Part shown: piece by piece, positions 18,048 through 22,475 of the stretch
How the letters are laid out: each line of letters opens with the position of its first letter
Position numbering within the stretch: position 1 is the first letter of the stretch
Assembly (NCBI GenBank): GCA_946411695.1
Contig: CAMKEX010000010.1
Span: 1-36,942, forward strand
Length of the DNA: 36,942 nucleotides
Direction of reading: 5' to 3'
Source of the DNA: an uncultured Lachnospiraceae bacterium
GTDB taxonomy: Bacteria > Bacillota > Clostridia > Lachnospirales > Lachnospiraceae
Notes under the pieces: model-generated
Told to the model about the DNA's origin: nothing
The model's input: only the letters and a program-made list of their open reading frames with translations
Database searches by the model: none
Program-made: the position numbers and the translations under genes

Positions 18048-18092
18048 TCTCTTCCGGGACATCTCTTCCTGATCCTTCCTCCTGTTTCTCCT
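18040..18092. repeat. Pyrimidine-rich degenerate repeats between convergent genes (about 12 bp)
   Basis: CCTGTGATCTCTTCC, GACATCTCTTCC, TGATCCTTCC and TCCTGTTTCTCC follow one another. The first includes the stop codon of the transporter ATPase gene. Similarity is loose, and low sequence complexity could explain part of it. Confidence 0.4.
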
Positions 18093-18939
18093 AATTCATC
18101 ATGGAAATACGTCTGCGCACCTCCCGGGGTGTCGCACCGTAGATCTCTTTGAACATGCGGTTGAAGAGTTTGTAGTTGGTGAAACCGTGCCGGTCCACGA
18201 TCTCCATGATCGGGGCGTCGGAGGAACACAGGTCGTGATAGATATGGGAGAGACGGACCTGGTTCAGGTGCTTTTTGAAGGGAATGCCTATTTTCTGCGT
18301 GAAGAGGCGGCTGAAATATTCGCTGCTCAGGCCGAAGCGGTCGGAGATCTCCTCCAGGGAGATCGGCTTGTCATAATTTTCGTCGATATAGGAGACGATC
18401 TCGCGGATGCGGCGCTGATCCTTGGACGGTTCAGGCAGATCGCTCCTGTAGAGCTGTATGGAGAAATGGGAGATCAGTTCATACAGGATATGCAGTACCA
18501 GGGATTCGCACTGAATGCGGTATCCGTAAGGATGGTTGGTGTAGTGATCGACCAGCTCCGCCAGTGCATCGCAGAGGGACAGATAGATACTGACGCGGTC
18601 TTCCGTCAGCTCCGTCCGGTCGCAGATGATCTGGAAATTGCGCTGGTTTTCCATAAACGAAGAGATGTATTCCGAATTGATATGGATGACTAACTGTCTG
18701 TAATCTCCTGAACAGCGGTATTCGTGGATCTTGCCCGCATCGACGGCGATGAATTCCCCTGCCACCATGGTGTGCGGAGTTCCCTCCACTGTGATATTCG
18801 CCTCCCCGTCGATCAGATAGGTAATCTCCAGGGCGGAGTGCCAGTGGGCGGGGACATAGGATTCATTTGTCCGGAAATCAATGGTGATGTTCTGGTTGAT
18901 CAGGTCATATTTTGGAATGTATATATTGCTGCCGGGCAT
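18091..18939 (-). CDS. AraC-family transcriptional regulator with cupin sensor domain
   Basis: About 282 residues. The N-terminal cupin-like domain (HWHSALEITYLIDGEANITV, GEFIAVDAGKIHEY) would bind a small ligand. The C-terminal AraC DNA-binding domain has both helix-turn-helix motifs (ISLEEISDRFGLSSEYFSRL and IMEIVDRHGFTNYKLFNRMF). GGAG lies 6 nt before the ATG at 18939 but directly abuts the one at 18945, so I chose the inner start. A good promoter is seen at 18982-19010. It faces the peptide transporter operon tail-to-tail and may regulate it, or the RNA/LRR region upstream; no operator was identified. Confidence 0.92.
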   Translation of the reverse strand: MPGSNIYIPKYDLINQNITIDFRTNESYVPAHWHSALEITYLIDGEANITVEGTPHTMVAGEFIAVDAGKIHEYRCSGDYRQLVIHINSEYISSFMENQRNFQIICDRTELTEDRVSIYLSLCDALAELVDHYTNHPYGYRIQCESLVLHILYELISHFSIQLYRSDLPEPSKDQRRIREIVSYIDENYDKPISLEEISDRFGLSSEYFSRLFTQKIGIPFKKHLNQVRLSHIYHDLCSSDAPIMEIVDRHGFTNYKLFNRMFKEIYGATPREVRRRISMMN

Positions 18940-18981
18940 AGACATCTCCCTCTTCTTTTGGCTGGGCTGCTATCTGCCATC

Positions 18982-19171: not shown

Positions 19172-19250
19172 TTTTTTGAAAATGTCAAAAAAGACTAAAT
19201 CTTCGTCAAAATATTATCTATACTACAGGGCCGCATCATGATATTATCAT
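19172..19250. promoter_or_regulatory. AT-rich region with inverted repeats before the candidate RNA
   Basis: TTTTTTGA/TCAAAAAA with a 5-bp spacer (19172-19192) and a 13-bp palindrome ATGATATTATCAT (19238-19250) flank a TATACT hexamer (19219-19224). TATACT could be a -10 box for rightward transcription, but I see no good -35. The dyads could be operator sites, for instance for the AraC-type protein. Bases 19011-19171 hold nothing recognisable. Confidence 0.35.
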
Positions 19251-19470
19251 ATCGTCAGATGACAAACACACGCACTGCAGTAAAGCGTTTTATTTATACC
19301 GCGCAATGCCCGTGACGACAGTCCCGGGATCCGTGCGCAGGACCTTACGGGTCCTGAATTATAATCGGTTAGTGTAGTACGGAAGTACTTGCTAATATAT
19401 TACCCCCCTAAGCATCTTGTAACATCCCTTGAAAAACACCCGGCAGTTTATCCCGCTGCCGGGTGTTTTT
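19231..19470 (+). ncRNA. Candidate structured small RNA (unassigned family)
   Basis: No ORF is credible here, yet the sequence folds into successive helices. GCGCA/TGCGC closes an arm containing CCCG/CGGG. Then come CAGGACC/GGTCCTG, then TTAGTG-AGTAC closed by a GGAA tetraloop against GTACT-TGCTAA, then C-rich single-stranded stretches (ACCCCCCTAAG and ATCCCTTG), and finally a 15-bp-stem terminator. The next gene has a promoter downstream of this terminator, and the gene on the left is divergent. The terminator therefore most simply ends a separate transcript. The 5' end is a guess from a TATACT box. C-rich loops are typical of regulatory RNAs in Bacillota that pair with ribosome sites; a trans-acting role is inference. 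I do not recognise a known RNA family. Confidence 0.55.
19432..19470 (+). terminator. Strong intrinsic terminator of the candidate RNA
   Basis: AAAAACACCCGGCAG pairs perfectly with CTGCCGGGTGTTTTT (15 bp, 9-nt loop). It is symmetrical and could act in both directions, but no gene lies to its right on the minus strand. Confidence 0.9.
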
Positions 19471-19481
19471 CATGTTATGAA

Positions 19482-19574: not shown

Positions 19575-21251
19575 ATGGCGGTTGATATTCAGTACTGCGG
19601 GTATTGCGGGACGGAACTGACAGACGGAATCAGTGTCTGCCCCAACTGCGGAAGAGATAACAGCGTTCCCATGCTGGGCGTCAGAAAGAGCGATTATTCC
19701 GGGCGCAGAAAAGACGGGGGCGGAAAGAAAAAACGTCCGCCTGAAGAAGCCGAAGAGGAATGGGCTGATCTCGATGACAGCTTTGAGAAAGAGAAACCGG
19801 TCCGAAGACGTAAAAAGAAGAAAAAACCGATAAAAACGGAAGAAGCGGTAAAAACGGAAGAAACGGTAATAATGGAAGAACCGGAGGAGGACCTCATGAC
19901 CTTCCCGGCAGAAGAGGATGACAAGGACGTAGAAGAGAAGCCCCGCAGAAAAAGATCCAAAAAGGAATCCAAAAAAGGATCGGGCATGCTCTCCGTGCTG
20001 ATTCTGGCAGGCGTCGCAGTCGTCCTGCTGATTATTCTGATTCCCAGAATTGCGAAACTCCTGCCGGATCCTTCTCTGAACGGAGGGCCGGCTCCCGCGA
20101 AAGAGCAGGAAGCCGCAAAGGAAAAAGAGAAAGAGAAGGCTCCCGCGGCGCAGACCGGCGAGGACTCCCCCAAACCCGCGGAAACAGATCCCGCAGTTCC
20201 CGCCTGGGAAAACGCGGCGGTGGAAGAGGCCGTCCGCGCAGCGGCAGGCGTTCCGACGGGTCAGCTCACACACAAGGATATCGAGGCGGTCACATATATT
20301 GATTTCTCCAATGCGGGGCTGACGGACCTGTCCGTACTGGAGGAGTTTCCTTCGCTTGTCAGTGTGGATCTGACCGGAAACGGGATCAGCGACCTGACAC
20401 CCGTCTCAAAGCTGACGCAGCTGGAAGGCCTGTGCCTCGATGAAAACAAGATTACCGACCTCATGCCCCTGCGCAATATGACTTCGCTGCAGAGGCTGTA
20501 TCTGAATGACAACCAGATCCAGAATCTCAAGCCGCTCGCCACCCTGACGGGCATGACCCAGCTGTATCTGGACAATAACCAGATCACGGACATCACTCCC
20601 CTGGCCGGCATGAAAGACCTGGGCATCCTCCATCTGGGAGGAAACCGCCTGCAGGACATCAGTACTCTGTCCGGTCTGCAGAACCTGGAGGTCCTGACCC
20701 TCTACAGCGACGGGATCTCCGATCTGGCTCCCCTGGCCGGGCTTGCCAGGATGCACCAGCTCAATCTCTGGGACAATGAGATCGGCGATATCAGTGTGCT
20801 GGCGCAGATGCCGGATCTGTCGCTTCTGATGATCGGCGGCAATCGGGTGAAGGATCTGGGGCCGCTGGCCAATCTGACAGCGATGGAGAACCTGTATCTG
20901 TCGGATAACCTGATCCTGGATATCGGCCCTCTCTCAGGACTTACCAGCCTCAAGGCCCTGGAGCTGCAGAACAATGAGATCCGTGACCTCTCCCCCCTGC
21001 GGGGACATGATGCCCTGGAGTATCTCGATGTGCGCGGCAACCAGATCACGGATTATTCCGTCGTAGAAGCGCTTGGAATCGAGACTCTGTATATGGACGG
21101 AGCAGAGGCGCAGGATGCGGGCGCAGGGCAGGAGATTCCGGCGCAGGAGGCTCCGGCGCAGGAGGTTCCTGCGCAGCCGGAGGCGGAAGCCGGGCCAGAG
21201 ACCGGAACACAAGCCGGGGCAGACAACGGGACGGAAGCCGGACAACAATGA
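19575..21251 (+). CDS. Zinc-ribbon, single-pass membrane protein with leucine-rich repeats
   Basis: The 558-residue protein begins with a zinc ribbon (YCGYCGTEL and CPNCGRD, Cx2C pairs). Next comes a highly charged Lys/Glu region, then one membrane span near 137-158 (MLSVLILAGVAVVLLIILIP). A Glu/Ala linker leads to about twelve 22-residue leucine-rich repeats of the internalin/SDS22 type (for example LYLDNNQITDITPLAGMKDL). An Ala/Pro/Glu/Gly-rich tail closes it. The likely topology is zinc ribbon and charged region inside, LRR domain outside. The start has an excellent AGGAGGAGG site and the gene its own promoter. The kinase gene follows within 80 bp. Ligand and partner are unknown; a cell-surface binding role is inferred from the LRR domain. 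Confidence 0.9.
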   Translation: MAVDIQYCGYCGTELTDGISVCPNCGRDNSVPMLGVRKSDYSGRRKDGGGKKKRPPEEAEEEWADLDDSFEKEKPVRRRKKKKKPIKTEEAVKTEETVIMEEPEEDLMTFPAEEDDKDVEEKPRRKRSKKESKKGSGMLSVLILAGVAVVLLIILIPRIAKLLPDPSLNGGPAPAKEQEAAKEKEKEKAPAAQTGEDSPKPAETDPAVPAWENAAVEEAVRAAAGVPTGQLTHKDIEAVTYIDFSNAGLTDLSVLEEFPSLVSVDLTGNGISDLTPVSKLTQLEGLCLDENKITDLMPLRNMTSLQRLYLNDNQIQNLKPLATLTGMTQLYLDNNQITDITPLAGMKDLGILHLGGNRLQDISTLSGLQNLEVLTLYSDGISDLAPLAGLARMHQLNLWDNEIGDISVLAQMPDLSLLMIGGNRVKDLGPLANLTAMENLYLSDNLILDIGPLSGLTSLKALELQNNEIRDLSPLRGHDALEYLDVRGNQITDYSVVEALGIETLYMDGAEAQDAGAGQEIPAQEAPAQEVPAQPEAEAGPETGTQAGADNGTEAGQQ

Positions 21252-21329
21252 GCTGCCCGGAAGATCCGGGAGGCGGATGTGATGAGCCGCCCCGCGGATA
21301 TGGACGGAACATGGTAAATGAGGTATGAC

Positions 21330-22475
21330 ATGATTGATCCGGCATTTCTTTGTATGGGATGCATGCGGCCTCTGCCGCGCAGGGGGATGGCCTGCACTAT
21401 GTGCGGGTTTGACCCGGAGAGATATTCGCAGGCGAGAAATCCGCGTGTTCTGGCGCCCTATACTCTGCTGGCGGGCCGCTACCTGGTGGGTGCGGTCCTG
21501 GGTGAGGGCGGTTTCGGGATCACTTACATAGGCTGGGATCTCCGCATGCAGTGCCGCATTGCCGTCAAGGAATATTTTCCGCCGGGAATCGCTACGCGGG
21601 ACACTGTCACAGGCATGACCGCGGCAGTGGCGCCCATGACGGGTGAGGCGGGACAGCACTATTCGCTGGGGCTGCGGAGCTTCGAGCGGGAGGGAAGAGC
21701 CCTGGCCCGCTTCCGGGATTTCCCGGGGATCGTATCTGTCAGGGACTTTTTCCGGACCAACCGCACTGCCTACATCATTATGGAATATGTCGCGGGCGTC
21801 AATCTCAAACAGTACCTGTCCGCACGGAAAAAACACGGCGCGGGGCCGGTGCCTGAGCGGGAGATCCTGCAGATGATGAGGCCTGTCCTCAGATCCCTGG
21901 AGAGGGTCCACAGAGAGGGGATCGTCCACCGCGACATAAGCCCGGAAAATATCATCAAGGGGCAGGACGGCAGCATCACACTTATCGATTTCGGGGCGGC
22001 AAGGGCCATCAATGCGGATGATACTGGCTATACGGTCGTCCTCAAGCGCGGCTATGCGCCTCTGGAGCAGTACAGATCACATGGCCGTCAGGGACCGTGG
22101 ACGGATGTATATGCCGTCTGTGCGACAATGTATGAACTTGCATCCGGCATACAGCCGCAGGATGCCATGGACAGGGTCTATGACGACCGGATCCGCCGGC
22201 TGTACGGGACCATCCCCGGAATCTCGGAGAAGTTCTCGGATGTGATCGCCCGCGGAATGAGCCTGCAGCAGGAGGAGCGCTACCAGACCATCCACCGGCT
22301 TTACCAGGACCTGTTCCCCGTAAATATGGAGGACGAGAGGGAGGCGGCCCGGGAACCGATCGATCCCTCCAGGCTCTTTTTTACACCTTCGGACCTCACG
22401 GGAGGCCGGGAAACCGCCTCTGCGGAGGAAACCGGGACCGAGCAGCTCTTTCTGACGGCGGCAGGCGACCTGTAG
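21330..22475 (+). CDS. Serine/threonine protein kinase with N-terminal zinc ribbon
   Basis: About 381 residues. Four cysteines (8, 11, 22, 25) form a zinc-ribbon-like motif before the kinase domain. The kinase has the glycine loop LGEGGFGITYIG, the ATP-anchoring Lys80 in IAVKEYF, catalytic HRDISPEN (D202, N207), the metal-binding DFG as LIDFGAAR, and GYAPLEQY. These make it probably active and of the HRDISPEN subgroup common in Clostridia. No membrane span or extracellular sensor follows; the last 60 residues look disordered. The ORF track starts at 21318, but GAGG is 6 nt before the ATG at 21330. It is transcribed with the LRR gene, which suggests a sensor/kinase partnership. Confidence 0.92.
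   Translation: MIDPAFLCMGCMRPLPRRGMACTMCGFDPERYSQARNPRVLAPYTLLAGRYLVGAVLGEGGFGITYIGWDLRMQCRIAVKEYFPPGIATRDTVTGMTAAVAPMTGEAGQHYSLGLRSFEREGRALARFRDFPGIVSVRDFFRTNRTAYIIMEYVAGVNLKQYLSARKKHGAGPVPEREILQMMRPVLRSLERVHREGIVHRDISPENIIKGQDGSITLIDFGAARAINADDTGYTVVLKRGYAPLEQYRSHGRQGPWTDVYAVCATMYELASGIQPQDAMDRVYDDRIRRLYGTIPGISEKFSDVIARGMSLQQEERYQTIHRLYQDLFPVNMEDEREAAREPIDPSRLFFTPSDLTGGRETASAEETGTEQLFLTAAGDL

Follow-up and report, generated by a model that had tools for sequence, protein, structure and literature searches.

What does the long terminator hairpin between a divergent gene and an LRR gene of this locus end? The window, meaning the whole stretch of 36,942 nucleotides analyzed here, belongs to an uncultured Lachnospiraceae bacterium (genome G000), and the first-pass annotation had proposed that the hairpin closes an unassigned RNA gene. 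The fold, the homologues, a conserved promoter and covariation agree with this proposal, and on these grounds the locus almost certainly carries a real, conserved RNA gene. The reading that we consider best, with a probability of roughly three in four, is a stand-alone, trans-acting, C-rich sRNA gene that is one of two sisters per genome.

Anatomy of the intergenic locus

The features on which the analysis relies are listed below; types A, B and C are forms of the RNA compared in the next section.

18091-18945, minus strand: AraC-family regulator (Pfam), divergent upstream neighbour, outside the RNA gene; also beside the type A RNA in genomes G029, G008 and G009
19184-19210, plus strand: direct repeat GTCAAA-N15-GTCAAA (19184-19189 and 19205-19210), likely activator site; its period is common to type A and C copies
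19239-19247, plus strand: extended -10 element TGaTATTAT; TGnTATTAT or near variants stand at the same place in type A copies, with a predicted start at ~19254
19254-19472, plus strand: predicted small RNA, type A, ~219 nt, from promoter to terminator; fold z -5.8 (19226-19475); homologues in 10 other species
19288-19355, plus strand: one copy of a palindromic repeat that is interspersed throughout the genus, located within the 5' part of the RNA, with blastn matches at unrelated intergenic sites of several other genomes
19368-19396, plus strand: hairpin 1, with a GGAA loop and compensatory changes in its stem; its wobbles are G-U only on the plus strand
19400-19430, plus strand: conserved single-stranded core UUACCCCCCUAAGCAUCUUGUAACAUCCCUU, almost invariant in 11 species
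Within this core, plus strand: seed boxes UUACCCCCCUA (19400-19410) and ACAUCCC (19422-19428), both also retained in types B and C
19431-19471, plus strand: intrinsic terminator hairpin, with six compensatory pairs among 11 species and an invariant loop
19482-19510, plus strand: own promoter of the downstream zinc-ribbon/LRR gene, TTGCCA-17-TATAAT, with 11/12 consensus matches
19575-21251, plus strand: LRR protein with an N-terminal zinc ribbon (Pfam), downstream neighbour, outside the RNA gene; the usual type A neighbour

The locus thus lies where it had been placed, between a divergent gene, identified as an AraC-family regulator, and the LRR gene. Folding of 19226-19475 yields -89 kcal/mol as compared with -62 +/- 4.6 kcal/mol for dinucleotide shuffles (z -5.83), none of the 200 shuffles being as good. 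The start of the RNA had been set at 19231 and has to be moved, since 19231-19247 is promoter and the predicted transcript begins only at ~19254. The GGAA-closed hairpin noticed at first reading is present as hairpin 1. The terminator is indeed a hairpin with a long stem, in which residues 19431-19446 pair with 19456-19471, giving at least 16 bp and not the 15 bp first counted, and its loop UUUAUCCCG, unchanged in all 11 species, constitutes a third C-rich box. This terminator does not figure in the list of the automatic terminator scan because its U run is paired within the stem; in relatives, U tracts reach past the stem. Downstream of it, the separate TTGCCA-17-TATAAT promoter attributed to the LRR gene was found again, and several relatives have a similar one following their terminator. 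Upstream, the RNA has a conserved promoter of its own, in line with the earlier proposal that the terminator ends a separate transcription unit.

The two C-rich stretches described as unpaired, ACCCCCC (19402-19408) and ATCCCTT (19424-19430), are largely so in the predicted transcript, with unpaired probabilities of 0.86 for TTACCCCCCTA and 0.62 for the ATCCCTT stretch, the third C-rich stretch reaching 0.79. The type A RNA therefore contains one ACCCCCC and two AUCCC motifs in regions predicted to be largely unpaired, i.e. the C-rich/UCCC motifs of C-rich Firmicutes sRNAs. Rfam searches of the window gave nothing at a family's gathering score and only terminator-like matches at relaxed E-values, which agrees with the early failure to assign the locus to a known RNA class.

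Conservation, strand and sister RNAs

In a DNA search (blastn) of 99 related genomes for homologues of the locus, ten further species of this Lachnospiraceae genus were found to share window 19367-19472, its 3' part, with 89-99% identity; the promoter stretch is conserved separately. The conserved 3' module comprises a hairpin, the C-rich single strand and the terminator hairpin. Compensatory changes in homologous regions, the test set in advance, were found: in the 11 type A sequences, 97.9% of cells are paired and 9 of the 26 pairs are changed on both sides, against 4.0 two-sided pairs in shuffles (none of 500 reaches either value) and 0-3 pairs in sliding controls. Across the same 11 sequences, the core linker is near-invariant while the adjacent hairpin varies. 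The apical stem of hairpin 1 contains four G-U and zero A-C pairs, and since its wobbles are G-U and never A-C, the plus strand is the RNA strand; a minus-strand RNA is disfavoured by these wobbles, the promoter and the U tracts.

Both G000 itself (G000:C99:5867-5909) and its relatives contain a second, shorter RNA, type B. It consists of a hairpin of the GUGUCAGC-GAAA-GCUGACAC type, a linker CAUUACCCCCCUAAGCAUUAUUACAUCCC and a terminator, with a predicted size of ~85-95 nt. The ten type B sequences have 98.9% of cells paired and two-sided changes in 6 of 19 pairs (1.8 in shuffles). Type A is conserved in 11 species, and type B is intact in 10 of the same species and split in one: in the isolate DSM 11001 (L119, G029:C48, ~68470-68592), an insertion of ~55-60 nt splits its C-rich core. 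Diverged copies, found with a model built from type B (R1) and then with core patterns, retain UUACCCCC(C/U)UA and ACAUCC, separated by a short spacer, the two-box spacing differing among types. Altogether, the RNA is present in at least 29 of the 62 genomes of the genus (26 in one count, to which G009, G025 and G022 are added). Two copies are present in no fewer than 24 of these 29, the single-copy genomes being incomplete assemblies. The named carriers comprise metagenome assemblies of Lachnospiraceae, of which at least one comes from sheep gut, and the isolate Sarcina sp. DSM 11001, which NCBI lists under Clostridiaceae.

Beyond the genus, the strict core pattern returned no credible copy in ~395 genomes of other Lachnospiraceae genera. 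Neither a terminator nor the promoter repeat is evident at the single core-pattern match in another genus or at the sole one on a viral contig, and both seem fortuitous; phage records gave no match. Model R1 matches in other genera are weak, and the five inspected have no C-rich core and are terminator-like only. No small RNA published for this rumen/gut Lachnospiraceae group turned up in a literature search. The predicted sRNA is previously uncatalogued, with a sister pair found, in the genomes searched, only in one genus of this group.

The promoters of the sisters differ. The GTCAAA-N15-GTCAAA repeat recurs at an exact 21-bp period in 25 of the 30 type A/C copies, the other five being one-base variants, and is probably bound by a DNA-binding activator. 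Scanning 2.4 Mb in two genomes returned no second clear intergenic promoter site of this kind, and the idea of a wider regulon was rejected, no other clear site upstream of a gene having appeared in these 2.4 Mb. Type B copies are devoid of the direct repeat; in 7 of 10, a CcpA-like box that fits the catabolite-control consensus, e.g. TGCAAACGATTTCA, immediately precedes an extended -10 element. From their promoter sequences, the sister RNAs A and B look differently regulated.

The neighbouring genes also vary with the type. Type B is flanked by PAP2-like and unidentified membrane-protein-like ORFs and type C2 by formate-tetrahydrofolate-ligase-like and amidohydrolase-like genes (names assigned by eye from the translations); the neighbours of type C1 are others again, the gene after some C1 copies being oppositely oriented. 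The RNA is what the copies have in common and the adjacent genes are type-specific, which argues for action in trans and against a cis-acting leader. Such a leader or attenuator of the zinc-ribbon/LRR gene, riboswitch-like and with the terminator as its switch, would account for the position of type A upstream of that gene in most species, but it is very unlikely: the LRR gene has its own promoter between the terminator and its start, sisters with the same core adjoin unrelated genes or, for some C1 copies, precede one on the opposite strand, no Rfam riboswitch matches, and the terminator stem is invariant or compensated. Co-transcription and a conserved adjacency with the downstream gene, by which a riboswitch or attenuator is recognized, are not seen together here.

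Three further observations concern the surroundings. After the LRR gene, window positions 21318-22475 encode a serine/threonine protein kinase-like product with an N-terminal zinc-ribbon-like cysteine cluster, so that the RNA gene is followed by two zinc-ribbon proteins in a row. A Clostridiales-1 RNA (RF01699, 90 bits; L110 545-727, minus strand, G000:C99) lies within ~1 kb of the G000 type B copy. A weaker match lies near the G010 copy.

Several helices had been described ahead of the terminator. Hairpin 1 stands as a conserved element; the two middle helices (~19288-19355) are the interspersed repeat copy and, as this repeat lies inside the type A RNA only in G000 and G011, do not belong to the conserved RNA. 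The palindromic intergenic repeat itself (near TTTATTCTTCATCGCGCAATACCCGTGACTTCAGTCGCGGGATACGCGCGCAGGACTCG) is scattered across the genus, at window 19288-19355 and at L012, L014, L016, L017, L018, L019 and L022. That the locus as a whole is a mobile or repetitive hairpin element without RNA function, as this copy at ~19288-19355 might suggest, is hardly credible, because the conserved module occupies about two fixed positions per genome with its own promoters, compensatory changes and type-specific neighbours.

Candidate partners and mode of action

Possible pairing of the C-rich boxes with ribosome-binding sites was examined in 1.5 Mb of genome G045. G-hexamers are scarce there and cluster at ribosome-binding positions, with 10 observed as compared with 1.0 expected; AGGAGG is similarly enriched, since both can serve as ribosome-binding sites. 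Pairing energies of the core with translation starts in G045 are no better than those of shuffled cores, and long complementarity to the core shows no excess over shuffled cores in the parts searched (~55% of G045, 23% of G000). The best ribosome-site candidate in G000 is a LacI-type regulator, the start of which is preceded by UAUAGGGGGGUGUAAUA, a G-hexamer site predicted to pair with the RNA (L285 1263-1340, G000:C9). It was rejected as a conserved target in the A/B clade: only G008 has the G-hexamer, G027 nearly so, and five other orthologues have lost it. Pairing of the C-rich stretches with ribosome-binding sites, as first suggested, remains plausible.

One striking case of complementarity is found in G009, where the leader of an HMGL-like aldolase gene carries CAAGGGAUGUUACAGGAUGCGUUAGAGGGU, able to form ~30 bp with that genome's own type A RNA at -48 kcal/mol, as compared with -30.9 kcal/mol for the strongest pairing among 500 shuffled leaders. 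The site is followed by another near-copy: in L026 ~1505-1604 (G009:C509), the antisense of the type A core is nearly reproduced twice in tandem, the second time partly inside a 12-bp hairpin. This leader may possibly represent a doubly targeted mRNA or a sponge. The contig bearing the site is short and comes from a metagenome-assembled genome that is fragmented. Searching the 62 genomes of the genus for long sites complementary to the type A, B and C2 cores returned only the RNAs themselves and this leader, and none of the ten other type A genomes has a close orthologue of the aldolase (best match 31% identity, partial). The leader is therefore a lead and not a rule, being the sole such site in 62 genomes and lacking a close orthologue.

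The scarcity of targets bears on another possibility, namely that the C-rich single strand serves to capture an RNA-binding protein, or else a different RNA, instead of pairing with mRNAs. We regard this as unlikely, although less so than a cis-acting leader: the two-box spacing varies between types, one mRNA leader (that of G009) pairs with the whole core, and proteins binding C-rich RNA are not known as a bacterial theme. It would fit a core conserved far above what the few predicted targets lead one to expect, with no target set emerging, and the several C boxes per molecule; the authors of the LhrC study also liken repeated motifs to protein-binding RNAs (PMC4132741).

The RNA probably acts in trans, with the C boxes as its base-pairing segments. 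Starting from the anatomy of the gene, its conservation, covariation, strand, paralogy and promoter repeat, we infer the following course of expression, regulation and mRNA pairing. A regulator recognizing the 21-bp direct repeat would activate the extended -10 promoter, and transcription of the type A RNA would end at the intrinsic terminator. The transcript would then display its C-rich boxes in the single strand that links the two hairpins, with a further box in the loop of the terminator. All these would pair with G-rich mRNA stretches, most likely at or near ribosome-binding sites, and pairing would lower translation or stability of the mRNA. Type B would present the same core from a different promoter, mostly with the catabolite-control-like box, so that two signals could feed one target set. 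The fully specified version is doubtful: a genus-specific pair of sister sRNAs would share a C-hexamer seed, a dedicated regulator of the 21-bp repeat governing one and catabolite control the other, and would target mRNAs whose ribosome-binding sites consist of G only as well as, in a single species, a leader carrying tandem ~30-bp sites, an mRNA that might in addition be a sponge for the RNA. In any case, the sisters retained their pairing boxes while their promoters diverged, and a defined, conserved RNA with a promoter, a sister copy and one candidate mRNA partner makes C-rich sRNA control testable in the cultured carrier DSM 11001.

Comparison with known C-rich small RNAs

By analogy, the RNA is probably of a known functional kind, the C-rich sRNAs of Firmicutes, and matches no known family. 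Like these, it appears, from sequence and covariation, as an intergenic unit with a promoter and an intrinsic terminator. The Rfam covariance models of LhrC and RsaE/RoxS, like those of all other families, have no match at gathering score in the window, and the weak matches below this score are terminator-like. RsaE/RoxS and FsrA of staphylococci and Bacillus use C-rich regions for target pairing, and a G-rich sponge RNA, RosA, is known for RoxS and FsrA (PMC8216469, PMC4132741). They differ from the present RNA in sequence and structure, and RosA is similar in idea to the G009 leader.

LhrC1-5 of Listeria monocytogenes are five copies under LisRK control, the linker of which blocks the Shine-Dalgarno sequence of lapB (PMC4132741). 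They share with the present RNA the multicopy state and repeated C-rich UCCC boxes, located in both linker and terminator loop, but number five copies as compared with usually two here, where an extra run of six C is found.

The csRNAs of streptococci, controlled by CiaR, occur as several intergenic sisters per genome of 51-202 nt, with an intrinsic terminator and two stem-loops separated by a conserved unpaired stretch able to pair with Shine-Dalgarno sequences (PMC3091779). Their sequence is different, their hosts are streptococci and not Lachnospiraceae, and their CiaR box TTTAAG-N5-TTTAAG is absent here, the promoter having instead GTCAAA-N15-GTCAAA with its 21-bp period, which one sister has lost. 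Nevertheless, the csRNAs and the present RNA are alike in their sister copies, two stem-loops with an unpaired linker, direct-repeat promoter, intergenic site and intrinsic terminator.
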